Assembly (NCBI GenBank): GCA_013696965.1
Contig: JACCXN010000057.1
Span: forward strand, 1-64,000
DNA from: Bacteroidota bacterium
GTDB lineage: Bacteria > Bacteroidota > Bacteroidia > JACCXN01
Direction: 5' to 3'
DNA length: 64,000 bases
Each line of letters starts with the position of its first letter. Position 1 is the stretch's first letter. This document shows positions 1-62,552 of the stretch, piece after piece. A program made the position numbers and the translations under genes. The notes beneath the pieces are model-generated. The model did not search any database, was not told the origin of the DNA, and saw only the letters and a program-made list of their open reading frames with translations.

Positions 1-264
1 GAACAGGCCAAGGCAAAAGCGGCAGCTGAAGCAGCCGCAAAAGCAAAGGCGGAAGCAGATGCCAAAGCCTTGGCTGAGGAAGCAGCAAGAAAAAAAGCCG
101 AGGAGGAAGCCCGTTCAAAACAATCTACTGAAGAACAGGCCAAGGCAAAAGCGGCAGCCGAAGCAGCCGCAAAAGCAAAGGCTGAAGCAGATGCCAAAGC
201 CCTAGCTGAGGAGGCAGCAAGAAAAAAAGCCGAGGAGGATGCTTTGTTAAGAAAAACAGCTGAG
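1..264 (+). repeat. two tandem 132-bp coding repeats
   Basis: Bases 1-132 and 133-264 are two copies of a 44-codon unit beginning GAACAGGCCAAGGC. They differ at about six positions over the first 108 bases and diverge in the last 24. Shorter, more diverged Ala/Lys/Glu units follow to about base 570. The array probably extends leftward out of the window. Near-identity at DNA level points to recent duplication or ongoing homogenisation. Confidence 0.8.
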
Positions 265-981
265 GAATTAGCAAAAGCAAAAGCAGCTGCAGAAGCTGCA
301 TCAAAGGCAAAATTGGAATCTGAAGCTAAAGCTGCTGCTGATGCAGCTGCAAAAAAGAAGTTGGAGGATGAATTAAAAGCAAAGGCTGTAGCTGATGCTG
401 CTGCTAAAGCAAAAGCAGATGCTGAAGCTAAAGCTATAGCAGATGCGGCAGCAAGGAAAAAAGCAGAAGACGATGCTAGAGCCAAAGCAGCCGCTGAAGC
501 CATTGCTAAAGCAAAAACGGAAGCAGATGCTAAAGCCGCCCAAGAGGAAGCTAAACGTAAAGTACTTGAAGAAAAGGAGAAAAAATATAAGGATGTGATA
601 CAAAAAGCAGATCAATTGTTTAATTCAAAAGAATACAATGCTGCTAAAGCTCTATATAATGAGGCAATTACATTAAAATCGTTAGAGAAATATCCTAAAG
701 ATAAAATTATTGAAATTGAAAAATTAATTGCTGCCTCCAAGCTTGCAAATGTTAAAGACTCACAGCTAGAAAAACCAATCTCAGATTTGGCATCAAAATA
801 CCCACAAGGTGTAACCGAAGAGAGTTATTCAGAAGGAGGTAAAAAGGTTATTAGAAGAATTGTAGTCAGAGATTCGGATGCAAATGAATATACAAAAGTT
901 ATATACAGTTGGGCTGTTTATTATTTTAAAAATGGAAACCAAGCCATTACAGAACAGGTTTGGAATATTGAAACTAAATAA
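1..981 (+). CDS. Ala/Lys/Glu-rich repeat protein with C-terminal TPR-like domain (5' partial)
   Basis: The frame is open from base 1, so the true start lies outside the window. The visible N-terminal ~190 residues are almost only Ala, Lys, Glu, Asp and Arg. They form a long helical, probably coiled-coil stretch of near-identical units. From about base 570 the composition changes to a short helical segment (KADQLFNSKEYNAAKALYNE) that resembles a tetratricopeptide unit. A C-terminal ~70 residues of mixed composition contain paired Tyr, Trp and Val residues. Such low-complexity rods with a TPR-like and a globular end occur in large Bacteroidota cell-envelope proteins, but I do not recognise a named family. 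A terminator follows directly. The gene stands alone on this strand, facing a convergent DUF2267 gene. Function unknown; a structural or scaffold role is only inference. Confidence 0.75.
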   Translation, partial: EQAKAKAAAEAAAKAKAEADAKALAEEAARKKAEEEARSKQSTEEQAKAKAAAEAAAKAKAEADAKALAEEAARKKAEEDALLRKTAEELAKAKAAAEAASKAKLESEAKAAADAAAKKKLEDELKAKAVADAAAKAKADAEAKAIADAAARKKAEDDARAKAAAEAIAKAKTEADAKAAQEEAKRKVLEEKEKKYKDVIQKADQLFNSKEYNAAKALYNEAITLKSLEKYPKDKIIEIEKLIAASKLANVKDSQLEKPISDLASKYPQGVTEESYSEGGKKVIRRIVVRDSDANEYTKVIYSWAVYYFKNGNQAITEQVWNIETK

Positions 982-1031
982 GAGAGACCACTTGGTAGCC
1001 TCTCTTATAAAATTGTTTTTTGTTTTTTTTT
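978..1031. terminator. hairpin terminator after the repeat-protein gene
   Basis: ATAAGAGAG (978-986) pairs with CTCTCTTAT (1000-1008), with an inner ACC/GGT pairing. A T-rich tail follows (1015-1031). It overlaps the stop codon of the repeat-protein gene and lies between two convergent genes. Confidence 0.7.
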
Positions 1032-1033
1032 AA

Positions 1034-1480
1034 TTAATGATAAACTTTTTCATCCCAAAGTTCTTTCAATTCTTTAGGCATAATAGCTCTTATGTCTTCG
1101 ATCTCGCCCGGAGAAACAGTTTCTTTAATAACAGAAAACACAGCATGAACAGCATCCAGACAATCTTCATTTGTTGGAAAATCTTCTTCTGCTGTAAGTC
1201 CGGCAATATGTTTTAAATCATCACAAAAATGATCTATTGATCTTATCCGTCTTGGTGAACCTGAAACTTTCCAGGCGTCAACATAAATACCCTTAATTAC
1301 TAAAGGCAATTGGGCTATGAGATGAAGTGATTCTTCAACAGTTAAAATATCGCGTAAAGCATGTAAAACAGCCTTTAATTGTCGACCAGCTTTATCTCTG
1401 TTGACATCTCCTAAATATTCGGCTACGTCTTTTACGAATTTATTCCCTTTTGCTGCATGTTTTTCAAAATTTAATGCCAT
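1034..1480 (-). CDS. DUF2267 domain-containing protein
   Basis: This 148-residue soluble, all-helical protein matches the DUF2267 family in length and character: an N-terminal segment with LGDVNRDKAGRQLKAVLHALRD, a middle part with QLPLVIKGIYVDAW, and a C-terminal MPKELKELW. DUF2267 proteins have no established biochemical role. They are often found near stress or plasmid-borne genes. The ATG at 1480 is supported by an unusually good Shine-Dalgarno sequence six bases upstream, which is atypical for Bacteroidota. That may reflect transfer from another phylum or strong translation. The gene is single, with 269 bases of non-coding sequence upstream. Confidence 0.8.
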   Translation of the reverse strand: MALNFEKHAAKGNKFVKDVAEYLGDVNRDKAGRQLKAVLHALRDILTVEESLHLIAQLPLVIKGIYVDAWKVSGSPRRIRSIDHFCDDLKHIAGLTAEEDFPTNEDCLDAVHAVFSVIKETVSPGEIEDIRAIMPKELKELWDEKVYH

Positions 1481-1486
1481 TTTTAT

Positions 1487-1493
1487 CCTCCTT
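1487..1493 (-). promoter_or_regulatory. strong Shine-Dalgarno site (AAGGAGG)
   Basis: On the minus strand, AAGGAGG lies six bases before the ATG at 1480. Bacteroidota genes seldom carry such a match, and I see no comparable site at neighbouring genes. It decides the start of the DUF2267 gene. Confidence 0.7.
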
Positions 1494-1749
1494 TTAGTTT
1501 ATAATTAAAGTATATTTTTACTTTAAATTAATAAAAAAAAAGATTTAATCCAAAGCATTTTTTGTAACCCAATACCTGTAGGCAACTAATAATTTATCAG
1601 ATTTTGATAATTTCCTCAAATCTGTATTAATATAGGATGGCAATAACAGTTTATTTATTTTTGTAAGGATCTGAAAAATATGTTTTTTAATTTTGGACAT
1701 TTAATGAGCTGTATGAATGACTTTTTTTAGGCTAAATTAAGCTTAAATC
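1494..1749. other. intergenic region with an 8-bp inverted repeat
   Basis: No convincing gene is visible. TTAAAGTA (1505-1512) and TACTTTAA (1519-1526) form an inverted repeat just upstream of the DUF2267 ribosome site. It could be an operator or a leader hairpin, but AT-rich palindromes of this size arise by chance. The rest is AT-rich and unstructured to my reading. Confidence 0.35.
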
Positions 1750-2700
1750 TCATTTGGCTAAAGTTTTTATTTTTCTCATACTTTTAATTCTTTCCCTTAC
1801 TAATTCTGTATGGATTACAACAGCCGCTTTGGCTCCTTCAGCAGCTGCCACAATTACTAATTTCATATCCTGGGATGCATCACCTGCTACAAATAGCCCG
1901 GGAATATTGGTATGTTGCATCTTGTCATTTATAATAATGCCACTTTTTGTATAACTACATCCCAACTGTTCTGCTAAAATACTTCTTTGGTTAAAACCTG
2001 TACTGAAAAAAACAGAATCCCTATTTATTTTCCTTCCATCTATTAATTCAATATACTTTATACTTCCATTTTCATTGCCAAATCGTTCTATTTTTTGAGT
2101 AAATACTTTTATTTTGTGGGCATAAAGCATGTTTTTCATTTTTTCATCAAGATAGTCAGCACTGTCTGTAAAGAGTATAATGTCTTTACTCCAGTTATAT
2201 AAGTTTAATGCCTGATCATAACCCGCTTTGGTTCGGCTGTAAATGCCTATAGCTTTATCCTTTGCTTCCCACCCATCACAATATGGGCAATGAAATATAC
2301 TTATTCCATAACATTCATCAAAACCAATAATTTTAGGAATGCTGTCCTGTAAACCAGTTGCTAGAAGGAGTTTTTTGGATAAATAAACATTTCCATGTCT
2401 GTCTGTTACTTCAAAACCTTTATCCATTTTTCTGCCATTTTCAATTTCTTCCTCTATAATTTCAATCTGGTACTTTGCAATTTCTAGCCTGCTTAATTTA
2501 ATAAATTCTTTAGGAGCTATTCCATCGCGTGTTAAATAACCATTTATTTGCGTTGCATACTGATTTCTGTATTTTCCCGAATCAAATAAAACTACTTTTC
2601 TTCTGCATCTTCCCAGTATTAATGCTGCACTCAGACCAGCAGGTCCTCCTCCGACAATAATTACATCATATTCAATATTTTGTTTTTTATTTGCTTTCAT
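1750..2700 (-). CDS. thioredoxin-reductase-like NAD(P)/FAD-dependent oxidoreductase
   Basis: A two-domain flavoprotein of about 316 residues from the ATG at 2700. A TTG at 2736 would add 12 residues before the conserved part. The FAD-binding motif VIIVGGGPAGLSAA sits near residues 14-27. The redox-active CPYC (Cys138/Cys141) is followed by DGWE, as in thioredoxin-reductase-like dithiol oxidases. The C-terminal FAD motif GLFVAGDAS is present. The family transfers electrons between NAD(P)H and a cysteine-pair substrate, or oxidises small dithiols. The substrate cannot be told from sequence, and I see no thioredoxin gene beside it. It is divergent from the type III polyketide synthase remnant, with a 168-base spacer that probably holds both promoters. 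Confidence 0.85.
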   Translation of the reverse strand: MKANKKQNIEYDVIIVGGGPAGLSAALILGRCRRKVVLFDSGKYRNQYATQINGYLTRDGIAPKEFIKLSRLEIAKYQIEIIEEEIENGRKMDKGFEVTDRHGNVYLSKKLLLATGLQDSIPKIIGFDECYGISIFHCPYCDGWEAKDKAIGIYSRTKAGYDQALNLYNWSKDIILFTDSADYLDEKMKNMLYAHKIKVFTQKIERFGNENGSIKYIELIDGRKINRDSVFFSTGFNQRSILAEQLGCSYTKSGIIINDKMQHTNIPGLFVAGDASQDMKLVIVAAAEGAKAAVVIHTELVRERIKSMRKIKTLAK

Positions 2701-2868
2701 TTTAGTGTGATTATATTTTTTCAAAACATTGTTCAAGAGATTGGACTTAAAATTATGCCAATAGAATTTTTAGTTAGTTACAGTCTGGTTTTAAACTACA
2801 AATACCTGTTTTTGCTTTTTTAGAAATATTCTTGATATTCCTTATCTTTAATAAAAGAAGAAAGATAA

Positions 2869-3450
2869 ATGGGAAATGCATTTTTATTATCAATAGGAAC
2901 AGCCGTTCCAGTAAATAAAGTTTCACAAAGCCTTCATTTTAAACAACTTATTGAATCTGCTCAGGAAGCCAGGCAAAAACGTTTGTTAAAAATAATTTAT
3001 GAACGTAGTGGAATTTCTTCCAGGTATTCTGTATTAGATGACTTTTCTATAGCGAATAAGGACAGTGGCATATTTTCCCCAGGAAATAAGGAGAGAAGAG
3101 TTCCGGGAATTGGAGAAAGAATGGAGATTTTTGAAGCCCATGCACTCGATTTAGCGGTAAAAGCAGTAGAAGATTCTTTTAATTCTTTGCCTGGTTTTGA
3201 AAAATCAACTATAACACACCTTTTGACCTTTAGTTGCACATGTGAGAAGGCCTTGAATTTATCATCTCATGATAATGCTTATTCTTATAAAATACTCAAC
3301 AATTATGGAAATATGTCATCAGTAACAGTTCTTTTTGTTTTAATGGAAATCCTCCAAAATAGGGATAGTAGGGAAAGTGATAAAAATGTTTTAAGTTTTG
3401 CTTTTGGTCCGGGTTTAACAATAGAATCAATGATTTTAAAGATAGTGTAG
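2869..3450 (+). pseudogene. type III polyketide synthase with in-frame deletion of the catalytic core
   Basis: The first ~124 residues match the N-terminal part of chalcone/stilbene-synthase-type enzymes (IGTAVPVNKVSQ near the start, RSGISSRY, ERMEIFEAHALDLAVKA, THLLTFSCT). The sequence then jumps, at about bases 3235-3243, straight into the family's C-terminal end (CEKALNLSSHDN, NYGNMSSVTVLFVL, FAFGPGLTIESMIL). Family members are about 350-370 residues; this one is 193. The missing segment normally carries the catalytic Cys and the HPGG His of the Cys-His-Asn triad; only the Asn of YGNMSS remains. The reading frame is intact, so this is a clean in-frame deletion, but the product cannot be an active ketosynthase. 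The methyltransferase starts 3 bases after the stop, so the two were one operon. An assembly collapse is the alternative. Confidence 0.8.
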
Positions 3451-3453
3451 TCT

Positions 3454-4155
3454 ATGATGGGCTTTTCAAATCGTTCTCGTTTACCTGAATTAATGGACAA
3501 CCCCTATGTTCCTGATGCCGATGTTAGGATTGCATTAGTAGAAATTGAATTTATTAACCGTTACTTAGGTGGCAATAATTTATTGGTGAATGCATTATCA
3601 AAGGTGGGTTTTACTAATGGAACAACCCTTATGGATTTGGGTTGCGGCAGTGGGGATATGTTAAGAATAATTTCAAATTTCGCCTTGAAAAACAAATTAT
3701 CTTCCTATAAATTATTTGGTGTTGATATAAATCCATCCATGACATCATTTGCTGAATCTCGTTCAAAAGCTTTTCCTGAAATTGAATTCATTAACATTGA
3801 CATTTGGGATGAAAAATTATTTGGTTTTAAACCAGATATCATAATCAACAGTCTTTTTTGTCACCATTTTGATGATGATCAATTGGTGTTGTTAATAAAA
3901 AGAATGTATAACCTGTGTGGGAAAGTCATAATAATTAATGATTTACATCGTCATTGGTTTGCTTATTATGCTATAAAATGCCTTACTTTTTTGTTTTCAA
4001 AATCCTATTTAGTTAAGTATGATGGTCCCTTATCTGTGGCCAGGGCTCTTACAAAAGCAGAATGGATGAAACTGTTATTTAGAGCAGAAGTTTATAATTA
4101 TCAAATTAATTGGAAATGGGCCTGGCGATGGCAAATAATTATCCATAAAAAATGA
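3454..4155 (+). CDS. class I SAM-dependent methyltransferase of the type III PKS operon
   Basis: A 233-residue Rossmann methyltransferase. The SAM-binding motif LMDLGCGSGDML lies at about residues 59-70, the acidic FGVDINPSM at the end of strand 2, and the post-motif INSLFCHHFDDD further on. It resembles UbiE/Coq5-like small-molecule methyltransferases that sit between a type III polyketide synthase and an FAD oxidoreductase in Bacteroidota. There it presumably methylates an alkylpyrone or resorcinol product (inference from context). It looks full length and undamaged, unlike both neighbours. Its stop overlaps the next start (ATGA at 4152-4155), which suggests translational coupling. With the synthase gutted, its present substrate is unclear. 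Confidence 0.8.
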   Translation: MMGFSNRSRLPELMDNPYVPDADVRIALVEIEFINRYLGGNNLLVNALSKVGFTNGTTLMDLGCGSGDMLRIISNFALKNKLSSYKLFGVDINPSMTSFAESRSKAFPEIEFINIDIWDEKLFGFKPDIIINSLFCHHFDDDQLVLLIKRMYNLCGKVIIINDLHRHWFAYYAIKCLTFLFSKSYLVKYDGPLSVARALTKAEWMKLLFRAEVYNYQINWKWAWRWQIIIHKK

Positions 4156-5301
4156 GTTCCAATAATTTTTTTGATGTAATTATTGGTGGTGGTGGCCTTG
4201 CAGGTTTAGTTTCTGCTATCGAATTGAGCAGAGCGGGATTGAAGGTTGCTCTTATTGAAAAAAAACAATATCCTTTTCATCGTGTTTGTGGCGAATATGT
4301 AAGCAATGAAGTTAAACCCTACCTGCAAAGATTAGGTGTAAATTTTAACCAGCTGGCCCCATCAACCATTAATAGCTTAAGGGTTTCATCTTTAAATGGT
4401 GAATTTAATCTTTTTTCAAAATTACAAATGGGCGGCTTGGTATAAGCAGGTACCAACTTGATTATCATCTTTATGAATTATTGAAACAGGAAAATGTTGA
4501 GATTTTTACCAATACAAGGATAAAATCTGTTCTTTATCTTCGAAACTACTTCAATGTGAAACTTGATAATAACAGCATAATTTCTTCTAAAATTGTAATA
4601 GGAAGTTATGGAAAACGAGATTTGTTGGACAGGCAGTTAAATCGTGATTTTTTTAAAGCTAAAACCGGATATATGGCAGTAAAATATCATATAAAAACAA
4701 GTTATGCTGCAAATGAAATTGGTCTTGATAATTTCAAGGATGGATATTGCGGTATTTCTAAAATTGAAGAGGATAAATATTGCTTGTGCTATCTTACAAA
4801 ACGGTCAAATATTGCTGGGTTAAATTCTATTAAGCAAATGGAGGAGGAGGTTTTATATAAAAACAGCCGATTAAAGCATATTTTTGAGCATTCTGAATTT
4901 TTATTTAGTAAACCAGAAGTGATAAATGAAATTTCTATTTCCCCAAAATCATTGATTGAAAATCATATTCTAATGTGTGGTGATAGTGCTGGAATGATAC
5001 TACTTTATGTGGAAATGGAATGGCTATGGCAATCCACTCAGCAAAAATAGTTTCGGAATTAATTATAGCAGCAAACATTAATAAAGAAAATGAAATCAGC
5101 ACTGAAATAAGGAGTTCAATTGAAAAATGCTATGCCAGGCAATGGAAGAGATTATTTGGCCGTAGAATTTATTGGGGAAGAAAGTTGCACTATTTTTCAG
5201 GAAAATCAAGGTATACCGATGTGTTTTTAAGGACTGTTCAACATTTGCCAATTCTTAAAGATAACCTGATTAATCTTACTCATGGAAAAACCATATTTTA
5301 A
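4152..5301 (+). pseudogene. FAD-dependent oxidoreductase (geranylgeranyl-reductase/UbiH-like), two frameshifts
   Basis: Three consecutive frames make one flavoprotein. Frame one (4152-4445) has the FAD motif IIGGGGLAGLVSAIELSRAG and HRVCGEYVSNEV. Frame two (to 5050) ends with CGDSAGMI. Frame three, entered around 5000, continues LCGNGMAMAIHSAKIVSELI to 5301. The first break is near 4438: adding one T gives GGFGISR, the usual continuation, so a T was lost from a TTT run. The second is near 5001-5006 and also fits loss of one base. Intact homologues are about 370-380 residues, matching the sum here. The enzyme probably oxidised or reduced the polyketide made by the adjacent synthase. It is either true decay, consistent with the deleted synthase, or two sequencing errors. 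Confidence 0.75.
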
Positions 5302-7148: not shown

Positions 7149-7212
7149 TATTCAGAATTCTAATAAAACCAATTTACCATTTACCTTTTATTATTAAATC
7201 GATAGTATTCAT

Positions 7213-11350: not shown

Positions 11351-12182
11351 CTATTGGAGACTATTTCCCTTAACTAAATTTTTATTATTTATACTTAACT
11401 GCATATTTGTTGAAAAAAGTACAATTAAAAAACAAACACTCATACATAGTGCAGAAATAGTATTAAGTTTCATACTGCGTTCAAAACTTGCATTATCAGC
11501 ATTATGAATAGAATCCCGCATCCACTTCATAAAATACAAGGTTACGGGAAAAAGAAAAATAAAAAACAAAAAGTAAAAATAATAATTGAAGAATAGAATG
11601 TAAAATATCAAAAGCATAACATTCACAGTTGCGAATAAAAACATGCTTAATAAAAAAGTGCCTTTTATTCCCAACATACTGCTAATGGTTTTATCGCCTC
11701 TTTTCTTATCCTCAATATGCTGGTAAATTTGTGATAAGGGGTAATAGGCCCCTACAAACATGGATGCAATTGCCATTGCAAATACATTATAGAAATTTAA
11801 CCATTCAAAAAGAGTTGTTGAGGTGGAAAAATAACTAACCAGGAAATAGGTATACCCTCCTTGAAAAAGCATTACTAGTACCCAGGAGAATATACCGTAT
11901 TTTTTTAATCGTATTAATGGTAACTTGTGGAGGGTTTTTCAGTCCTCCAATACTTCCTTCATCTTTATCCATATAGCTGTTGTAGGAATTGCTAGCTGGG
12001 TATATAAACAAATGTAAAGAGATGAAAATAATGAAGGAATTTAAAAATAGTATTTCTTTAGCAAAAGTTAAGCTGAAAAGAAAGATTGGAAATAGGTAAA
12101 TTGAAAAAGGGATGCGTAAATGGCTGATAGTGTCCTTATCAAAAATCTTAAATAAATAGATTAAATTCAATTTTTCCTGCAT
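11351..12182 (-). pseudogene. UbiA-family prenyltransferase, one frameshift
   Basis: The N-terminal frame (from ATG 12182) carries the first prenyl-diphosphate-binding motif, NSYNSYMDKDEGSIGG. The C-terminal frame (to 11351) carries the second, YQHIEDKKRGDKT. The frames join if one A is removed from the seven-A run of the coding strand (T-run at 11900-11906), which gives KKYGIFSWVLVMLFQGGYTYF. The joined protein, about 275 residues with about eight membrane helices, has normal family length. Enzymes of this family prenylate aromatic or other acceptors in quinone, haem or lipid biosynthesis. The homopolymer site makes a sequencing error a serious alternative to a true null allele. It is the first gene of the group ending in the LpxL-type gene. 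Confidence 0.75.
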
Positions 12183-52011: not shown

Positions 52012-53556
52012 ATGATTTCTATAGGTGAACAACAACTGACTATAAGCGATATTTATGCTATTCTTTTTGAAGAACAAAAGATTAAATTGTCGGAAAAAGC
52101 ATTAAAAAAAGTCAATGAGAGTTATTTGTTTTTAAACGAATTTTCAAAAGGGAAGCTTATTTACGGCATAAACACTGGTTTTGGGCCTATGGCTCAATAT
52201 AAAATAGCCGACAAGGATTTAAGACAATTACAATATAATCTTATTCGTAGTCACTGCTCTGGTTCTGGAAATTTATTATCTGATGATGATTTAAAATCCA
52301 CCATGATTGTTCGCCTTGTTTCATTAATGCGTGGATATTCAGGAGTAAATAAGGAATTGGTAGAGCTGCTTCGTGAGCTAATAAACAAAGGAATTTTACC
52401 CTGTATATATGAACATGGTGGGGTAGGAGCAAGTGGGGATTTGGTACAACTTGCGCATTTAGCACTTACATTAATTGGGGAGGGAGAAGTAGTATACAAT
52501 GGGAAAGTTTCTGATGCTGCAAGCGTATACAAAAAAGAAAAGCTTAAACCACTTACAATTCATAAAAGAGAGGGTATAGCGGTTCTTAATGGAACTTCTG
52601 CTATGTCTGGAATTGGTGCGATAAATTTAATATATGCCAGAAAATTACTGAATTGGTCAGTTGCCTTTTCAACCATTATAAATGAAATTGTTGAAGCCTT
52701 TGATGATCATTTTTCAACAGAACTGAATGGGGTAAAGCATCATGTTGGCCAACAAAAAGTGGCTGCGGCAATGCGTAAGATTGTTGGAAAGAGTAAATTA
52801 ATTAAAAAACGATCTGATACTTTATATCAAAGTAAAAATATAGAACAGCAGGATATTGTAAAGGAAAAAGTGCAGGAGTATTATTCCCTTAGATGCGTAC
52901 CTCAAATACTCGGACCTGTTTATGATTCAATTGTTTATGCCGAACAAGTGGTAATGAATGAGGTTAATTCTGTAAATGACAACCCCATAATTGATTGTGA
53001 AAATCAGGATGTTTTTCATGGAGGAAATTTTCATGGTGATTATGTTGCCCTTGAAATGGATAAATTAAAGATTGCTGTTACAAAACTTGCGATGCTTTCC
53101 GAACGCCAGTTAAATTACTTGCTTAATGATAAACTCAATCAAAAACTACCTCCATTTCTTAATCTTGGTAAACTTGGTTTAAATTATGGTATACAAGGCA
53201 TGCAGTTTACTGCAACATCTACCACTGCAGAGTGTCAAACACTTTCTATGCCTGCATATATTCACAGTATCCCTAATAATAATGACAACCAGGATGTTGT
53301 AAGCATGGGTACCAATGCAGCTTTAATTACCAGGAAGGTAATAGAAAACACTTTTGAGGTTCTTTCCATACACGCTATTGCTGTTGTTCAGGCTGTAGAT
53401 GGATTAGAATGTTCCAACCGACTTTCCCCTTTTTCAAAGAAAATCTACAATGAAATAAGAAAAATATGCCCTGTAATTCTTGAAGACAGACCAATGTACA
53501 AGGACATTAAAAAAGTCAGGGAGTATTTGAAAAAGGAAAAAATCAATATAGTATAA
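52012..53556 (+). CDS. tyrosine ammonia-lyase (aromatic amino acid lyase family)
   Basis: 514 residues, full length for the HAL/PAL/TAL family. The cofactor-forming triad is Ala140-Ser141-Gly142 in HGGVGASGDL. Other family blocks are INTGFGPMAQYKI, QYNLIRSHCSGSG, NDNPIID and IPNNNDNQDVVSMGTN. From memory, the sequence resembles Flavobacterium tyrosine ammonia-lyase much more than histidine ammonia-lyase. It would deaminate tyrosine to 4-coumarate, the starter of the aryl polyene. It opens the cluster, and the ketoreductase follows after 16 bases. Histidine as substrate cannot be fully excluded. Confidence 0.85.
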   Translation: MISIGEQQLTISDIYAILFEEQKIKLSEKALKKVNESYLFLNEFSKGKLIYGINTGFGPMAQYKIADKDLRQLQYNLIRSHCSGSGNLLSDDDLKSTMIVRLVSLMRGYSGVNKELVELLRELINKGILPCIYEHGGVGASGDLVQLAHLALTLIGEGEVVYNGKVSDAASVYKKEKLKPLTIHKREGIAVLNGTSAMSGIGAINLIYARKLLNWSVAFSTIINEIVEAFDDHFSTELNGVKHHVGQQKVAAAMRKIVGKSKLIKKRSDTLYQSKNIEQQDIVKEKVQEYYSLRCVPQILGPVYDSIVYAEQVVMNEVNSVNDNPIIDCENQDVFHGGNFHGDYVALEMDKLKIAVTKLAMLSERQLNYLLNDKLNQKLPPFLNLGKLGLNYGIQGMQFTATSTTAECQTLSMPAYIHSIPNNNDNQDVVSMGTNAALITRKVIENTFEVLSIHAIAVVQAVDGLECSNRLSPFSKKIYNEIRKICPVILEDRPMYKDIKKVREYLKKEKINIV

Positions 53557-53572
53557 ATTCAAATTTACAAAA

Positions 53573-54301
53573 GTGAAATACGCATTAGTTACAGGAGGAT
53601 CAAGAGGAATAGGCAGGGCAGTATGTATAAGACTTGCTCAAATGCAATTCAATATTTTATTGAATTATAAAAGCAACGACACCGAGGCTGAAAAAACAAA
53701 ACAAATGATTGAGTCACAAGGTGTGGTGTGCGAACTGCTGAAATTTGATGTTTCCAGTAAGCAACAAGCAGATGATGTGCTTGCAGGATGGATTGAAAAC
53801 AATAAGGATAAGATTATTGAAGTTCTTGTTAACAATGCTGGAGTAAGAGAAGATAATTTACTGATGTGGATGACAGAAGCTCAGTGGAAGAATGTGATTT
53901 CTACCAGCCTTGACTCATTTTTTTATGTTACAAGACATGTGGTAAATCAAATGCTCGTGAAAAAATATGGCAGAATAATTAATATGGTCTCGCTTTCCGG
54001 ATTAAAAGGATTGCCAGGACAAACAAATTATTCAGCTGCTAAAGCAGGTTTAATTGGGGCTACCAAAGCCCTTGCACAAGAAGTGGCCAGAAGGGGAGTT
54101 ACTGTAAATGCACTTGCACCAGGTTTTATTGAAACTGAAATGACTGCAGATCTGGATGAAAAACAGTTATCAGCCTTGGTTCCTATGAAAAGATTTGGTA
54201 AGGCTGAGGAAGTAGCAGAGGCAGTTGCCTTTTTCGCATCTCCTGGTTCATCCTACATTACAGGTGAGGTATTAAATATTAATGGTGGCCTTTATTCATA
54301 A
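53573..54301 (+). CDS. 3-oxoacyl-ACP reductase (FabG-like)
   Basis: 242 residues from a GTG start. A short-chain dehydrogenase with TGGSRGIGRAV (NADPH-binding, residues 8-18), NNAGVREDN, the catalytic Ser in MVSLSGLKG and Tyr-Lys in NYSAAKAG. It reduces the beta-keto group formed by the cluster ketosynthases during polyene assembly. It lies between the ammonia-lyase and the first ketosynthase in one operon. Confidence 0.92.
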   Translation: MKYALVTGGSRGIGRAVCIRLAQMQFNILLNYKSNDTEAEKTKQMIESQGVVCELLKFDVSSKQQADDVLAGWIENNKDKIIEVLVNNAGVREDNLLMWMTEAQWKNVISTSLDSFFYVTRHVVNQMLVKKYGRIINMVSLSGLKGLPGQTNYSAAKAGLIGATKALAQEVARRGVTVNALAPGFIETEMTADLDEKQLSALVPMKRFGKAEEVAEAVAFFASPGSSYITGEVLNINGGLYS

Positions 54302-54340
54302 TTAATTTAAACAAGAGATAAAAAAGTAAATTTAATTGTC

Positions 54341-55567
54341 ATGAAAAGAGTAGTGATAACAGGTATGGGAATATATTCCTGCATCGGAAAAGATATGGAG
54401 CAGGTAAGAGATTCCTTATTTAATGGAAAATCTGGGATTATACTTGATCAATCCAGAAAGGAATTTGGTTATCGTTCAGGACTTACTGGCCTTGTTGAAA
54501 GGCCTCCTCTAAAGGGAGTATTGGACAGAAGAGCCAGGATAATGTTACCAGAACAAGGAGAATTTGCATATATAGCTACCTTGGAGGCATTAAAAAACGC
54601 AGGTTTAGATCAAACATATCTTGATGAGAATGAGGTTGGAATCATTTATGGGAATGATAGTTCCGCAAAGCCTGTTATGGAAGCCATTGATATAATACGG
54701 GAAAAAAAAGACACTATGCTTGTTGGTAGTGGTTCTGTTTTTCAAACGATGAATTCAACCGTAACAATGAATCTTTCTACAATATTCAGGCTTAGGGGGA
54801 TTAATTACACTATTAGCGCTGCTTGCGCAAGCGGCTCTCATGCCATTGGTACGGGTTATAATTTTATTCGTACAGGCCAGCAGGATATGATTGTTTGTGG
54901 GGGTGCTCAGGAAGTAAATATTTATTCAATGGGAAATTTTGATGCCCTGTCTGCTTTTTCCATAAGAGAACATGAACCTACAAAAGCTTCTCGTCCTTTT
55001 GATAGAGCAAGAGATGGTTTAGTTCCTAGCGGAGGTGCTGCTACTGTTATTTTGGAAAGCCTTGAATCGGCTCTTAAAAGAGGGGCAAACATATTAGGAG
55101 AAGTAATAGGCTATGGATTTTCATCTAATGGCGGGCATATTTCCAATCCTACTGTAGATGGGCCTGTGAAAGCTTTGGCAATGTCCATGAAGGATTCTGG
55201 TATTACTGCTGATCAAATAGATTATATTAATGCCCATGCAACATCAACCCCTGTGGGTGATTCGAGTGAAGCAAAAGCAATTGATGCAGTATTTAATCAA
55301 TCAAGACCTCCAGTAAGTTCTACAAAATCAATGACCGGGCATGAATGCTGGATGGCAGGGGCAAGCGAAATTGTTTACTCAATGATTATGATGAAAGAAG
55401 GTTTCATTGCTCCTAATATCAATTTTGAAAATCCTGATGAAGATTCTGCGCGTTTAAATATTATTGATAAAACTTTGGATAAAAATATTAATGTATTTTT
55501 GTCCAATTCGTTCGGATTTGGCGGGACAAACTCCTCGCTTATTATTAAAAAATGGGAAAAGATATAA
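54341..55567 (+). CDS. beta-ketoacyl-ACP synthase (FabF/FabB-like), first of two
   Basis: 408 residues of the thiolase fold. The catalytic triad is complete: Cys162 (SAACASGSHA), His299 (NAHATSTPVGD) and His334 (MTGHECWMAG). It condenses malonyl-ACP with the growing chain. It starts 39 bases after the ketoreductase gene and ends 3 bases before the ACP gene. It is not a chain-length factor, because the active-site Cys is present. Confidence 0.92.
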   Translation: MKRVVITGMGIYSCIGKDMEQVRDSLFNGKSGIILDQSRKEFGYRSGLTGLVERPPLKGVLDRRARIMLPEQGEFAYIATLEALKNAGLDQTYLDENEVGIIYGNDSSAKPVMEAIDIIREKKDTMLVGSGSVFQTMNSTVTMNLSTIFRLRGINYTISAACASGSHAIGTGYNFIRTGQQDMIVCGGAQEVNIYSMGNFDALSAFSIREHEPTKASRPFDRARDGLVPSGGAATVILESLESALKRGANILGEVIGYGFSSNGGHISNPTVDGPVKALAMSMKDSGITADQIDYINAHATSTPVGDSSEAKAIDAVFNQSRPPVSSTKSMTGHECWMAGASEIVYSMIMMKEGFIAPNINFENPDEDSARLNIIDKTLDKNINVFLSNSFGFGGTNSSLIIKKWEKI

Positions 55568-55570
55568 AAA

Positions 55571-55828
55571 ATGGAAAAAAAAGAAATCATAGAAAAAATC
55601 AATAGTTTTTTGGTTGAAGAATTTGAAGTAGAGTATGAAAAAATTAGTCCAGAGGCAAACTTACGGGAGACCCTTGAACTGGATAGCCTGGATTATATCG
55701 ATTTAGTTGTTGTTATTGAAAGTAACTTTGGATTTAAAGTACAAGCAGAAGATTTTACAGGCATTCAGACCTTTGAAAATTTCTACGATTATGTGTTATC
55801 CAAAGTTGAGCAAAAAGAATCAATATAA
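55571..55828 (+). CDS. acyl carrier protein
   Basis: 85 residues, acidic and helical. Ser39 in LDSLDYID is the phosphopantetheine attachment site. It carries the aryl polyene intermediates of the cluster. Its stop overlaps the start of the acyltransferase gene by one base (55828), so the two are translationally coupled. No dedicated phosphopantetheinyl transferase lies in the window. Confidence 0.93.
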   Translation: MEKKEIIEKINSFLVEEFEVEYEKISPEANLRETLELDSLDYIDLVVVIESNFGFKVQAEDFTGIQTFENFYDYVLSKVEQKESI

Positions 55829-56706
55829 TGCCTCAATGGCAGGGGAAATCCAAGGGAGGATCTGCTGGATACAAATTTTTTGTATTCCTGATTAAAACAT
55901 TTGGAATAAGTTTTTCTTATTTTTTTCTGCGCTTTGTAACACTTTATTATTTTTTCTTTTCGGCAGAAACTTCAAGGCATATACTTGATTTTTACCAAAA
56001 CAAATTGAAGTTTAGCTGGTTCAGATCGAGGATTAAGCTTTATCAGAATTATTACATGCTTGGTCAAACCTTAATTGATAAAATAGCGGTGATGGCCAAA
56101 ATCCCAACCAATTTTAGTTTTGATTTTGATGGCGAGCATAACCTGCGCGAGATGGTTTCTTTGAAAAAAGGAGGATTGTTACTTAGCGGGCATGCAGGAA
56201 ATTGGGAGGCCGCAGGCCACTTATTACAAAGGCTCAATACCAGAATTAACATTGTAATGTATGATGGGGAGGACGCCCAAATCAAAAAATATATGGATGA
56301 GGTTACCGGCCAAAAAACATTCCAGATTATTTTTGTAAAAGAGGACCTTTCCCATATTTATAAAATCAATCAGGCCTTGGCCTCCAATGAACTTGTATGT
56401 ATTCATGCTGACAGGTTTTTGCCGGAGAATAAAACCCTCTCCACCGAATTTTTTGGGAGTTTAGCTCGTTTTCCCGAAGGTCCCTTCCTTTTAGCCCTTA
56501 AACTTAAGGTGCCTATTGTTTATGTTTATGCTTTTAAGGAAAGTAATTCTCATTATCATTTTTATTCTACAAAAATAAAGTATTTTTACCAGCACAATGG
56601 CGATTCAATTCAAAGCGTATTGAATGATTTTGCCTTAGATTTTCAGGGAATGGTAAAAAAGTATCCTGAACAATGGTTTAACTATTATGACTTTTGGCAA
56701 CAATAA
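55828..56706 (+). CDS. LpxL-like acyltransferase of the pigment cluster
   Basis: 292 residues with an N-terminal hydrophobic anchor (about 10-45). The catalytic His-x4-Glu is in LSGHAGNWEAAG, and HADRFLPENKTLS is the second conserved block. It belongs to the same family as the lipid A acyltransferase at 10227-11129 but lies inside the pigment operon. It probably transfers the aryl polyene acyl chain from ACP to its acceptor, perhaps the dialkylresorcinol; that is inference from context. Confidence 0.82.
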   Translation: MPQWQGKSKGGSAGYKFFVFLIKTFGISFSYFFLRFVTLYYFFFSAETSRHILDFYQNKLKFSWFRSRIKLYQNYYMLGQTLIDKIAVMAKIPTNFSFDFDGEHNLREMVSLKKGGLLLSGHAGNWEAAGHLLQRLNTRINIVMYDGEDAQIKKYMDEVTGQKTFQIIFVKEDLSHIYKINQALASNELVCIHADRFLPENKTLSTEFFGSLARFPEGPFLLALKLKVPIVYVYAFKESNSHYHFYSTKIKYFYQHNGDSIQSVLNDFALDFQGMVKKYPEQWFNYYDFWQQ

Positions 56707-56708
56707 AT

Positions 56709-57131
56709 ATGCTGGCTTCTGGTATTGAAATTTTAGAATTTATCCCCCAACGTTCACCTATGGTAATGATAGATAAACTGTTGTTTTCTAATAATGAAAA
56801 AACAGTTTCAGGACTTTCCATTGATGAGGATTGTATTTTCTGCGAAAACGGTCATTTATCTGAAAGCGGATTGGTTGAAAATATTGCTCAAACCGCTGCT
56901 GCTGGCGTTGGTTATCTTTGCAAAATGGAGAATAAAAAAGTTCCAATTGGCTTTATAGCTTCCATAAAAAATTTAAATGTTTTCCATCTCCCACATGCAA
57001 AAGATGAATTAAGAACAGAGGTTACAATTATTAACGAAGTAATGGATGTTACAATCATTAATGGTACAGTACATTGTAAGGAAATACTAATGGCTGAATG
57101 TGAAATGAGGATATTTATTAAACCTGATTGA
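56709..57131 (+). CDS. 3-hydroxyacyl-ACP dehydratase, hotdog fold (FabZ/ApeI-like)
   Basis: About 140 residues from the ATG at 56709, which avoids overlap with the acyltransferase; a TTG at 56694 is in frame. QRSPMVMIDKLLFS and NGHLSESGLVENIAQTAAAG are the dehydratase-type blocks, with the active-site His and Glu in NGH and VEN. It removes water from the 3-hydroxyacyl intermediate to make the conjugated double bonds. Confidence 0.82.
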   Translation: MLASGIEILEFIPQRSPMVMIDKLLFSNNEKTVSGLSIDEDCIFCENGHLSESGLVENIAQTAAAGVGYLCKMENKKVPIGFIASIKNLNVFHLPHAKDELRTEVTIINEVMDVTIINGTVHCKEILMAECEMRIFIKPD

Positions 57132-57140
57132 AAAAATAGT

Positions 57141-57794
57141 ATGATGAATTTTTTTCCATGTAACTTTTTTATCCTTGTACTTTTTGCTACGTTTTCAAAT
57201 TCATTGGAGGCGCAAACCATCAAGGATATATTTTTACCTGAAACCCCAATAACATACCATGGAATAGATTTTTCAGAAACAAGGTATTTTGGTGAAGCAG
57301 GAACTGTTAGTAGTAGTGAAATGAAGATACTGACCAATAAAATCAATTTGTTGATTGTTTCCGAACCTGCAAAATTTAACCTTCTGAAAACTTTTTCTAA
57401 AAACAGGATTAACAATAATCTTACCTTAACGATTAAAATTAATGAGGAGCTTGATGAGGACAAAATTATCACCTATAATTACGCTGATTGTTCAAGACTA
57501 ACACCACAGATTATTCAGTCCATGGTTTACAAATACAACTTTGATAATCCCACTGGCGTTGGTCTGGTTTTTATTATGGAAGGAATGAATAAAAGCATAG
57601 AACAAGCTTCAATTTGGGTTACTTTTTTTAACATGTTTGACAATACTGTGCTGTTAACTCAAAGGGTAAGCGGTAAGGCCTCTGGTATCTCATTTAGAAA
57701 TCATTGGAGTAATTCGGTTCATAATATTTTTATAAAAATATACACCAGGGAATATAAAATGTGGAAAAAGGCTTATGGGCCTTCAAAAAAATAA
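57141..57794 (+). CDS. exported protein of the pigment cluster, unknown family
   Basis: 217 residues with a signal peptide (cleavage near residue 25, SLEAQ). The mature part has no catalytic motif I recognise; it contains ETRYFGEAGTVSSSEMKIL, ITYNYADCSRLTP and GVGLVFIMEGMNKS. The position between dehydratase and thioesterase genes, with 9 bases before and a 4-base gap or small overlap after, implies a role in pigment assembly or transport outside the cytoplasmic membrane. Function unknown. Confidence 0.7.
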   Translation: MMNFFPCNFFILVLFATFSNSLEAQTIKDIFLPETPITYHGIDFSETRYFGEAGTVSSSEMKILTNKINLLIVSEPAKFNLLKTFSKNRINNNLTLTIKINEELDEDKIITYNYADCSRLTPQIIQSMVYKYNFDNPTGVGLVFIMEGMNKSIEQASIWVTFFNMFDNTVLLTQRVSGKASGISFRNHWSNSVHNIFIKIYTREYKMWKKAYGPSKK

Positions 57795-57798
57795 TACT

Positions 57799-58215
57799 AT
57801 GTTATCTGAAATAACCGAGATTAAGGTAAGGTTTAATGAGGTAGATCCTTTGGGGATTACCTGGCATGGCCATTATTTGAGGTATTTTGAGGATGGACGT
57901 GAGGCATTTGGTGCTAAATATGGCTTAGGATATCTTGAAATGTACAAACTTGGTTTTGTTGTTCCAATTGTGAATATAAATTGCAATTATAAAAAATCAC
58001 TACAATATGGGGATAAGGCAATTATTGAAACAACTTTTATTGATAATCCCGCTGCAAAGATAATTTTTGAATATAAAATTTACAATCCTGAAACACTTGA
58101 AATTATTTCTGTTGGAAAATCTGTCCAGGTTTTTTTAGATATTCATACAAAGCAATTACAGATTAAAACTCCAGAGTTTTTTGAAAATTGGAAAATCAAT
58201 AACAATTTAATTTAA
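57799..58215 (+). CDS. acyl-CoA thioesterase (4HBT/YbgC-like)
   Basis: About 138 residues from the ATG at 57799; an ATG at 57775 overlaps the previous gene by 20 bases and is possible. VRFNEVDPLGITWHGHYLRYFEDGREAF has the catalytic Asp of the family and the helix over the active site. It could release the finished acyl chain, or clear stalled ones from ACP. It resembles the thioesterase at 30097-30513 only in fold. Confidence 0.8.
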   Translation: MLSEITEIKVRFNEVDPLGITWHGHYLRYFEDGREAFGAKYGLGYLEMYKLGFVVPIVNINCNYKKSLQYGDKAIIETTFIDNPAAKIIFEYKIYNPETLEIISVGKSVQVFLDIHTKQLQIKTPEFFENWKINNNLI

Positions 58216-58227
58216 TCGATTAAAGTA

Positions 58228-59382
58228 ATGCAAAAGGTTTTTGTTGAGTCTCACAATATTTTATCTCCATTGGGAAACACAACACTTGAAAATTTTATTC
58301 AGGTTCAAAATGGTCATTCAGGTGTAAAACTTCACCATAGAAAGGATTTGCATGATGAAGGAATTTGGGCTTCTATTATTGGAGCGGGTCAATTTGAAGA
58401 AATAACTAAGGGTATCATTAATTGCAACAATTTCACTCGTTTTGAAAAGCTTTTAATAGCCTCCATAAATAATGCTTTAATAACTTCTTCTGTTGATTTA
58501 TCCAGTAATGAAACTATTTTTATATTTTCAACCACAAAAGGAAGCATTGAATTGCTAGAAAAACAAGATGCTTCACCAGAACTTTATGAAAGGATGAGTT
58601 TACATAATTCCTGTTCACTGGTTTCAAATTATTTTAAAAATGAAAATAAACCAGTTATAATTTCGAATGCATGTGTATCTGGTGTCACTGCAATTTTATA
58701 TGCAAGGCGAGTATTGGCTTCTGGAAGCTTTAAAAATGCTGTTATTGTTGGGGCTGATACCTTTAGTAAATTTGTATTTTCAGGATTTCTTTCTTTTCAA
58801 GCATTAAGTCAAGGAAGGTGTAGCCCATTTTCAAATAACAGGGATGGTATTAATTTAGGGGAAGCTGCAGCCACAATTATTATTACTACACAAGCTGAAT
58901 ACGTAGCACAAGGTGTAAAAATGGAAGTTCTCAATGGAGCTATAAGTAATGATTCCAATCATATTTCAGGTCCTTCAAGAACTGGTCAGGAGTTAAGCAC
59001 TGCAATTGATAAGGCAATTCAATTATCAGGAATATCTGCTAAGGATATTGGTTTTATTTCAGCTCATGGAACTGCAACCTTGTTCAATGATGAAATGGAA
59101 GCCAAGGCTTTTAATTTATCCGGCCTGCAAAATACTCCTGTTAATAGTCTTAAGGGATATTTTGGACATACCCTGGGAGCAGCAGGTTTAGTTGAATCAA
59201 TTATTAGTATTTTATCTTTAAAGCAAGGAATTGTAATTCCAACAGCTGGGTTTTCAGAATTGGGAGTTTCCCCTCCTATTAATGTGTGTAACAATAAAAT
59301 TAATAATACAATGCGTTACTTCTTAAAAACTGCTTCCGGTTTTGGTGGTTGTAATGCTACTTTAGTTTTTTCTAAATCATAA
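58228..59382 (+). CDS. beta-ketoacyl synthase, second of two
   Basis: 384 residues. The triad is complete: Cys149 (SNACVSGV), His280 (SAHGTA) and His314 (YFGHTLGAAG). It is diverged from the first ketosynthase (no SAACASG block) and resembles the aryl-polyene ketosynthase type. The two synthases may work on different chain lengths or as a pair. It sits between the thioesterase and methyltransferase genes with gaps of 12 and 15 bases. Confidence 0.88.
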   Translation: MQKVFVESHNILSPLGNTTLENFIQVQNGHSGVKLHHRKDLHDEGIWASIIGAGQFEEITKGIINCNNFTRFEKLLIASINNALITSSVDLSSNETIFIFSTTKGSIELLEKQDASPELYERMSLHNSCSLVSNYFKNENKPVIISNACVSGVTAILYARRVLASGSFKNAVIVGADTFSKFVFSGFLSFQALSQGRCSPFSNNRDGINLGEAAATIIITTQAEYVAQGVKMEVLNGAISNDSNHISGPSRTGQELSTAIDKAIQLSGISAKDIGFISAHGTATLFNDEMEAKAFNLSGLQNTPVNSLKGYFGHTLGAAGLVESIISILSLKQGIVIPTAGFSELGVSPPINVCNNKINNTMRYFLKTASGFGGCNATLVFSKS

Positions 59383-59397
59383 ATAAATACAAAAAAA

Positions 59398-60471
59398 ATG
59401 AAATTTTTTAATAGTGATAATCGTACAGCTCTTGAAGCAATTGAATATGCTCAACACATCGCTTTTGCCCCTATTGTTTTCCAGGCTTCAATAGCACTAA
59501 GGGATTTGGGGATATTAACAATTATTGAAAAACAAGGAAAAGATGGAATAACAACTGAACAGGTTGTTGAGCTATCAGGACTAAAGCCTTACGGTGTAAG
59601 AGTTTTACTTGAGGCTGGTCTTGGAATCGGACTATTAACCATCGATGATAATTACAATTATTTTTTAACTAAAACCGGTTATTTCATTTTACAGGATGAA
59701 ATGACAAAGGTGAATATGGACTTTGTTCAGGATATTTGTTACAAAGGGATGTTTGATTTAACTGGTTCAATTCAAACCGGCAAGCCCGAAGGACTAAAAA
59801 CATTAGGTCCTTGGCCAACGGTTTATGAAGGACTTTCTGTTTTGCCTGAGAAAGAACAAAAAAGCTGGTTTAATTTCGATCATTACTATTCCAGTGATTC
59901 TTTTCCTCTTGTTCTACCACATGTATTTAAGGATAGCCCTAAAAAATTACTCGACATTGGTGGAAATACTGGTAAATGGTCACTTCAATGTGCGAAATAC
60001 AATGAGCAGGTTCAAGTAACAATTGCAGATCTACCAGGACAGTTGAAAATGGCTCAGGCCAATATCGAAAGCCAGGGCCTTTCCTCCAGAGTTGGTTTTC
60101 ATGAAATTAATATCCTTGATAAAAACGCTAAACTTCCTAAAGGTTTCGATGTTATCTGGATGAGCCAGTTTCTAGATTGTTTTTCCGAGGAAGAAATAAT
60201 TTCTATTCTGGAAAGATGCTTTGAAGCTCTTGATGAAAACGGACAAGTATTTATTTTGGAGCCTTTCTGGGATAGGCAGAAGTATAAAGTTTCTGCATTT
60301 TGTCTTCAGATGACTTCCTTGTATTTTACCAATATAGCCAATGGGAATAGTCAAATGTATCATTCAGGTCTTTTTATAAAACTTGTTGAAAAAGCAGGAT
60401 TCCATGTAATTGAGAAAATTGACAATATTGGAGTTAGTCACTCTTTGTTAAAATGCAGTAAGAAAAAATAA
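59398..60471 (+). CDS. SAM-dependent methyltransferase with N-terminal winged-helix part
   Basis: 357 residues. A helix-turn-helix-like N-terminal part (about 20-95) precedes the Rossmann domain with LLDIGGNTGKWSLQCAK (motif I, about residue 184) and VTIADLPGQ (strand 2). This is the layout of plant- and bacterial-type O- and C-methyltransferases. It would methylate the pigment, most likely the aromatic ring or a chain end. It is the last gene before the cluster terminator. Confidence 0.82.
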   Translation: MKFFNSDNRTALEAIEYAQHIAFAPIVFQASIALRDLGILTIIEKQGKDGITTEQVVELSGLKPYGVRVLLEAGLGIGLLTIDDNYNYFLTKTGYFILQDEMTKVNMDFVQDICYKGMFDLTGSIQTGKPEGLKTLGPWPTVYEGLSVLPEKEQKSWFNFDHYYSSDSFPLVLPHVFKDSPKKLLDIGGNTGKWSLQCAKYNEQVQVTIADLPGQLKMAQANIESQGLSSRVGFHEINILDKNAKLPKGFDVIWMSQFLDCFSEEEIISILERCFEALDENGQVFILEPFWDRQKYKVSAFCLQMTSLYFTNIANGNSQMYHSGLFIKLVEKAGFHVIEKIDNIGVSHSLLKCSKKK

Positions 60472-60491
60472 ATTGATATTTTTAAAAAATT

Positions 60492-60546
60492 AGTAAAGAA
60501 AGCCCATTGTACTATAAGTATATATGGGTTTTACTTCATTTTTTTA
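60492..60546 (+). terminator. terminator inside the pigment cluster
   Basis: AGTAAA...AAGCCCAT (60492-60507) pairs with ATGGGTTTTACT (60524-60535) with a short bulge and G-U pairs. A T-run follows. It splits the cluster into two transcription units. Confidence 0.55.
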
Positions 60547-60613
60547 TTAAGCATTTATAGTGCAATTAAACTGAATTTTACCTGTATCTTTTTTAAGCCG
60601 GAAATCCTAGCTA

Positions 60614-62212
60614 ATGAAAAATCTTTACACTTCTGATCTTGCCAATTCAAGCTATGATGCTATTGTTATAGGTTCGGGAATGGGAGGACTTACAACAGCT
60701 GTTTTTCTTGCCAAGTCAGGCAAAAAAGTTCTGGTTCTTGAAAAGCATTATGTTCCCGGAGGTTTTACCCATACATTTAAGCGGAAAAATTTTGTGTGGG
60801 ATGTAGGTGTTCACTATGTTGGGCAGGTTAACCTAAAGGATGCATTATTACGTAAGGCTTTTGATTATATTAGTGAGGGAAAATTAAAATGGTCTGATAT
60901 GGGCGAAATATACGATCAGGCTATTATTGAAGGGGATGTATATAATTTTAAAACCGGGGTTGAAAATCAAATCAATCAAATGATTGAATATTTTCCAGGG
61001 GAAGAAAAAGCCATTCGATCCTATTATGAATTGCTTCAAAAAATAAGTGGTAATTCAATCATGTTTTTTTCTGAACGCACTATGCCTGATTGGCTTAGTA
61101 GAACACTTGGATATTTTCTGCGCAAGGGATTTTATAAATATTCCAATCAAACCACATATGAAGTAATAAGCAAGCTAACTAAAAATCAAAAATTAATTGC
61201 AGTATTATGCGCCCAATGTGGTAATTATGGTTTGCCGCCTAAAAAAAGTAGTTTTGCAATACATGCAATGATTGTTGAACATTTTTTAGAAGGAGGAAAT
61301 TATCCTACAGGTGGTTCTTCAAGCATACATAAAAGCCTTACTGATGTTATTGAATCACATGGTGGTAAGGTTGCCATAAAAGCAGCTGTGAAAAATATAA
61401 TTATTAAAAATAATAAAGCCGTTGGGGTTGAAATGGAAAACGGGGATAGAATTCATGGCTTAAAAATTATAAGCAATGCAGGGGCGCATAACACCTTCAA
61501 TAAATTAATACCAGTAGAATTACAAAAAACTGAAAACACAAAAGCATTAAACAAAATAAAGCCTTCGGTTTCCCATGTTTGTATTTATGTTGGATTAAAT
61601 GCAAGTGACAAGGAATTAAAGCTACCCAAACACAATATCTGGTTATACGATAGTTATTACTTGGATGAAAAATTTCAGAAGCATCTGGATGGTGAAAATA
61701 TAAAATCTCCCCTGGCTTATATTTCATTTCCATCTGCTAAAGATGCGGATTGGGAAAACAAGCATCCTGGAACATCCACCATCCAGGTTATAGGCTCATT
61801 TCCCTATGATGGAGTAAAATTTTGGGAAGATAAAAAATGGCAAAAACGTGGCCAGGATTACCATGCATTGAAGGAAGAAATAAAAAGCCATCTTCTTGAA
61901 AAGTTATATCAGGTATTGCCGCAAGTAAATGGCAAGGTTGAAATTTGTGAATTATCCACACCACTTTCAACAAAACATTTTAGTAATTACAAAAGGGGTG
62001 AAATTTATGGGTTGGAACATTCTCCTGAAAGATTTAAATTAGTGCAATTAAGACCCAAAACCAATTATAAAAACCTATATCTTACAGGTCAGGATATTGT
62101 CTGTGTTGGTGTTGGCGCTGCTCTTTTCTCTGGAATTATTACAGCGGTTTCAATTTTAAACAGGAATTTATTGTGGAGAATTATACGTTATAAAGTGCCA
62201 CAAACAGAATGA
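60614..62212 (+). CDS. CrtI-like NAD(P)/FAD-dependent oxidoreductase
   Basis: 532 residues. The N-terminal Rossmann motif VIGSGMGGLTTAVFLAKSGKKVLVLEK is followed by PGGFTHTFKRKNFVWDVGVHYVG. The C-terminal LTGQDIVCVGVGAALFSG completes the FAD site. It belongs to the phytoene-desaturase / retinol-saturase superfamily. In this cluster it could oxidise or saturate the polyene or tailor the pigment, which is inference. It begins a second transcription unit after the terminator. Confidence 0.85.
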   Translation: MKNLYTSDLANSSYDAIVIGSGMGGLTTAVFLAKSGKKVLVLEKHYVPGGFTHTFKRKNFVWDVGVHYVGQVNLKDALLRKAFDYISEGKLKWSDMGEIYDQAIIEGDVYNFKTGVENQINQMIEYFPGEEKAIRSYYELLQKISGNSIMFFSERTMPDWLSRTLGYFLRKGFYKYSNQTTYEVISKLTKNQKLIAVLCAQCGNYGLPPKKSSFAIHAMIVEHFLEGGNYPTGGSSSIHKSLTDVIESHGGKVAIKAAVKNIIIKNNKAVGVEMENGDRIHGLKIISNAGAHNTFNKLIPVELQKTENTKALNKIKPSVSHVCIYVGLNASDKELKLPKHNIWLYDSYYLDEKFQKHLDGENIKSPLAYISFPSAKDADWENKHPGTSTIQVIGSFPYDGVKFWEDKKWQKRGQDYHALKEEIKSHLLEKLYQVLPQVNGKVEICELSTPLSTKHFSNYKRGEIYGLEHSPERFKLVQLRPKTNYKNLYLTGQDIVCVGVGAALFSGIITAVSILNRNLLWRIIRYKVPQTE

Positions 62213-62326
62213 AAAAATAGATTCTGTAAAATGTAATAAATCTTTAATAGAGTGGCATTTAAAGAAATAATAAGCCTAATTAATTCACCTAAAATAAAAT
62301 CCCCTAGATTACTGGAATTAATTTAT

Positions 62327-62405
62327 GAAATAGCCATGCACACCGTTCACAAACGCTAATGAATATATCAAGGCTCCAGATAAATCGGGATGACAATTAA
62401 AAAAA
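62327..62405. repeat. dispersed intergenic repeat, copy B
   Basis: It starts AAATAGCCATGCACA and contains TTCACAAA, AATGAAT, GGCTCCAGATAAATCGGG, ATGACAATTAAAA. CCAGATAAATCGGG is close to the palindrome CCCGAT-AA-ATCGGG. It aligns with copies A and C but lacks the 3' hairpin. Confidence 0.6.
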
Positions 62406-62413
62406 CACATATA

Positions 62414-62520
62414 AAATAGCCATGCACAAAGGTGAACAACAGAAATGAATTTAACCTGGCCCCTGTTGAATGGAATGACAATTAAAATACGAATGCTTAG
62501 TATTCATGGTTCTATGGAGG
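62414..62520. repeat. dispersed intergenic repeat, copy C
   Basis: It starts AAATAGCCATGCACA, the same as copy B 87 bases before. It continues with AATGAATTTAACCTGGC, CCTGTTGAATGGAATGACA, AATTAAAA and a hairpin GAATGC-TTA-GTATTC. That hairpin matches the AATGCT/AGCATT hairpin of copy A, with a G-U pair in the stem. Confidence 0.6.
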
Positions 62521-62552
62521 AACATTAACAAACGATTTAACTTATTATACAG

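Follow-up and report, generated by a model that had tools for sequence, protein, structure and literature searches.

Probable recent decay of one copy of a prenylated-polyketide pathway in a Bacteroidota genome

In this study, we analyzed a 64,000-nucleotide stretch of a Bacteroidota genome (the window), which holds all four protein families of a putative biosynthetic pathway. Genes for a type III polyketide synthase (T3PKS), a methyltransferase (MT), and an FAD oxidoreductase (FAD) lie compactly at 2869–5301, and a gene for a UbiA prenyltransferase lies at 11351–12182, with 6 kb of unrelated genes in between. The assembly comprises 3.86 Mb in 106 contigs, and a second T3PKS match was found on another contig, C11. 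The features are listed below; the first four are in the window.

2869–3450, plus strand: T3PKS remnant, 193 aa, identified by Pfam, by alignment, and by the same gene set in relatives
3454–4155, plus strand: SAM-dependent MT of this pathway with an open frame of 233 aa, studied by a tree and a constraint test
4152–5301, plus strand: broken FAD oxidoreductase of the same family as the geranylgeranyl reductase-like C11 copy, with two single-base frameshifts
11351–12182, minus strand: broken UbiA prenyltransferase, identified by tblastn with the C11 UbiA and by alignment; its Pfam UbiA match is below the cut-off
L035 (G000:C11), 23–5142, all on one strand: intact operon with genes for OMP-like, YceI, UbiA, T3PKS, MT, and FAD proteins

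The T3PKS remnant consists of the first half of the N-domain joined to the second half of the C-domain. It matches Chal_sti_synt_N (residues 2–125) and Chal_sti_synt_C (residues 125–192, starting from profile position 76), both above the Pfam cut-offs. Alignment with nine intact relatives (L086–L094), to which the surviving parts are 42–49% identical, placed the breakpoints at an in-frame join, SCT|CEK, at 3240/3241. In L092 the absent segment measures 528 nt, and in each of the other eight relatives 534 nt (178 codons); it contains the NFMGC motif with the catalytic Cys and the HPGG motif with the catalytic His. Compared with T3PKSs (chalcone synthase/DpgA-like superfamily), the remnant retains both Pfam halves and the catalytic Asn motif GNMSS but lacks the complete thiolase-fold N- and C-domains and two members of the Cys-His-Asn triad. 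With approximately 178 residues gone, including the catalytic Cys and His, it cannot act as a T3PKS. Short direct repeats at the join, which had been suggested as a feature to look for, were rejected; with the relatives standing in for the ancestor, microhomology of at most 2 bp is possible.

The MT gene retains its motifs, and its stop codon overlaps the start of the FAD gene (ATGA). The reading frame of the FAD gene changes twice, by one base near 4438 and again near 5001–5004, so that the gene passes through three successive frames; neither shift lies in a homopolymer of 3 or more. For these three genes, the alignments bear out the first-pass annotation, which had described a synthase that lost about 170 residues without a frameshift, an intact MT, and an FAD oxidoreductase with two single-base frameshifts. 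It had overlooked the UbiA gene. With the C11 UbiA as query, tblastn matched residues 22–93 in one frame of the window and residues 139–305 in another, indicating an internal deletion of approximately 41–45 codons that shifts the frame, with the join near 11915–11925.

The assignment of these fragments to one pathway draws on gene neighborhoods in relatives. A full-length synthase is present in 70 of the best 80 related loci, and the UbiA family of the window adjoins the synthase in 31 of the 80. The same four protein families are clustered in intact form in L086, L088–L092, and C11. Most close relatives have UbiA beside the synthase in divergent orientation; in the window, UbiA and the synthase are likewise on opposite strands, whereas UbiA sits on the far side of the operon, downstream of the T3PKS–MT–FAD group, and three of the four genes are broken.

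Four lesions have thus broken three of the four pathway genes, in two groups 6 kb apart, and such independent inactivating lesions in several genes are the mark of a pseudogene operon. Judged by open frames, no other visibly split gene was found in the 64-kb window, including the 6 kb between the broken groups. By our own tally of approximately 59 genes, the probability that three broken genes would all fall among these four is about 1e-4. Chance as the source of the fragments themselves is excluded, since they match a four-gene set found in dozens of genomes. The earlier description of an operon decaying in place therefore holds, with UbiA now included.

The lesions look young because little drift has accumulated at conserved positions, defined as those that are the same in at least 90% of relatives. 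Departures at these positions were 0 of 37 in the synthase remnant, 2 of 42 in the MT, 2 of 49 in UbiA, and 8 of 106 in the FAD gene, which ranks 58th of 61. The T3PKS deletion is judged to be recent, as first proposed, because the surviving residues match all 37 strongly conserved positions. In other draft assemblies, the FAD gene of L093 (near 7163–7195) and the UbiA gene of L012 (near 777–788) also look frameshifted; from these two loci, decay of the T3PKS–MT–FAD–UbiA pathway may recur in other genomes.

The intact MT may leave room for partial function. Its closest relatives are 48–53% identical, among searched relatives that all fall outside the genus. In 8 of 80 related loci (L143, L119, L124, L133, L135, L147, L148, and L150), a member of the same MT family is present and no synthase was detected in the flanks retrieved, and because of these occurrences the MT is possibly useful outside the pathway. 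In L143, the gene directly downstream of the MT presumably resembles mqnA of the menaquinone pathway. The surviving MT is not strong evidence of function, as it may have a use outside the pathway or may simply not have been hit.

The second operon is complete. Contig C11 (6.7 kb) carries open genes for a UbiA of 309 aa, a T3PKS of 364 aa with the full Cys-His-Asn triad, an MT of 237 aa, and an FAD protein of 372 aa, the last of which scores best against NCBIfam GG-red-SF (geranylgeranyl-reductase family) but under the cut-off of that model. This operon represents a different branch of the family. The window and C11 MTs share 38–39% identity. In the MT tree, the window copy falls in a 12-row set of Chitinophagaceae-type and Bacteroidetes MAG sequences (support 95/89) and the C11 MT in a separate supported set (98/93); both rows are long-branched, and their exact places within each set are unsure. 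Because of this separation and the low identity, the two operons are, from their sequences, an old pair of paralogs or xenologs, and a recent duplication of the C11 operon was rejected. In plasmid records, only distant T3PKS matches (<60% identity) were found.

Contig C11 probably belongs to this genome; its sole link to the rest of the assembly is that contig ends overlap identically. The 114-base sequence at its end recurs at the start of contig C54 and at no other place in the genome. C54 in turn shares its last 90 bases with the starts of both C5 (72 kb) and C66. At this end of C54 lies a gene, L177 (2560–3862), which we take to be transposase-like and which likely caused the contig breaks. 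No source of C11 as a contaminant was identified, and its YceI and OMP-like neighbors have no close match in 99 relatives. Relatives of the OMP and YceI genes are also found near the T3PKS locus in three genomes (G035, G042, and G097), hinting that the pathway may comprise six genes.

We propose that the window very probably contains a recently decayed, non-functional copy of a four-gene prenylated-polyketide pathway, with an intact counterpart on C11. Selection on the window copy would have lapsed once the C11 operon did the job of the pathway, and the old paralogous or xenologous operon would then have been lost gene by gene following functional replacement. The lesions are independent: the core is deleted in frame in the synthase and out of frame in UbiA, and FAD carries two frameshifts. 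The MT is not yet hit, and the open frame of the synthase remnant would be owed to chance. The first-pass annotation had instead suggested redundancy with an intact flexirubin cluster as the cause. The cluster itself is real: at 52012–63470 of the window, it encodes the tyrosine ammonia-lyase FlxA above the cut-off and an FlxJ-family methyltransferase just under the cut-off. We take it to be of DarA/DarB chemistry, unlike that of T3PKS; this difference makes the cluster an unlikely cause, and redundancy likely stems from the C11 operon, whose genes belong to the same four families as those of the window copy.

Functional replacement must be weighed against plain loss, in which C11 is a contaminant and the organism has ceased to produce the compound. 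The contig is small, its GC content is 36.8% against 33.9 ± 1.7% for the genome, its tetranucleotide composition is at the edge of the range (7th percentile), and the estimated contamination of the genome is 2%. Moreover, an N-terminal T3PKS domain match is absent in 58 of 99 relatives and in both relatives from the same family (81–86% complete). Against these points, the identical end overlaps chain C11 through C54 to C5, whose composition is typical of the genome, and we consider loss without replacement unlikely, though well worth keeping in view. An artefact of sequencing or assembly, with the copy really intact, could be suspected in a draft of 106 contigs, where the lesions, including the join at 3240, are seen in the assembled sequence. 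However, there are four independent lesions of different kinds, all in one pathway in a window with no other visibly split gene; the FAD sites lie outside homopolymers, and the deletion join is not a collapsible repeat. Another contig-end pair overlaps by 127 bp, which suggests a short-read k-mer assembly, where non-homopolymer indel errors are rare. We regard an artefact as very improbable.

Equally improbable is that the 193-aa protein has been kept as a functional half-synthase, for example as a non-catalytic partner or a lipid-binding lobe, with the broken neighbors being incidental. This possibility was raised by the first-pass annotation, which considered a clean excision with an open frame unusual. 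The open frame and the unbroken agreement at conserved positions are in its favor, and an AlphaFold model of the remnant (pLDDT 74, pTM 0.65) resembles one thiolase-like half, with T3PKSs as the best PDB matches in a fold search. However, the model was built with full-length homologs, and those matches reach a TM of at most 0.60 with an rmsd of at least 6 Å; the remnant model is compatible with a retained fold without being evidence for one. The protein has lost the catalytic Cys and His, its neighbors UbiA and FAD are frameshifted, and a scan of 395 genomes of the class gave no equivalent of the gapless short form, short matches in G227 and G382 aside. One in three random deletions preserves the frame. 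The core deletion in UbiA, the only other one in the pathway, is equally clean but out of frame, and because of this the open frame of the synthase is best attributed to such chance. It is hardly credible, in particular, that the deletion joined the two structural repeats of the synthase, at positions that are nearly homologous, into a half-thiolase lobe that folds and has been kept, possibly as a partner of the C11 synthase or to bind its lipid product.

The locus is an ordinary pseudogene operon of recent origin, and its intact counterpart lies elsewhere in the assembly. It shares with other bacterial pseudogene operons the independent frameshifts and deletions across one pathway and the one gene unhit, and nothing essential differs, although one deletion is in frame. 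As a clear small example of pathway-level decay, it has genes 6 kb apart that are broken and intervening genes that are not visibly so, and it illustrates how weakly a frame left open across a gutted enzyme argues for function.

T3PKSs convert an acyl starter into a phenolic or pyrone ring, and YceI-family proteins can bind polyprenyl lipids. In the pathway proposed here, UbiA would prenylate the T3PKS ring, and the MT and FAD enzyme would modify it; the natural guess for the product is a prenylated phenolic lipid or a quinone-like compound. T3PKS clusters are common in Flavobacteriaceae, where they account for 10.74% of clusters (PMC10734526). Our literature search found Bacteroidota T3PKS clusters to be common and returned no paper that assigns a product to this gene set. 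The pathway of T3PKS, MT, FAD reductase/oxygenase, and UbiA is widespread in Bacteroidia, and this conserved set, joined by YceI in C11, is arguably more interesting than the decay of one copy.
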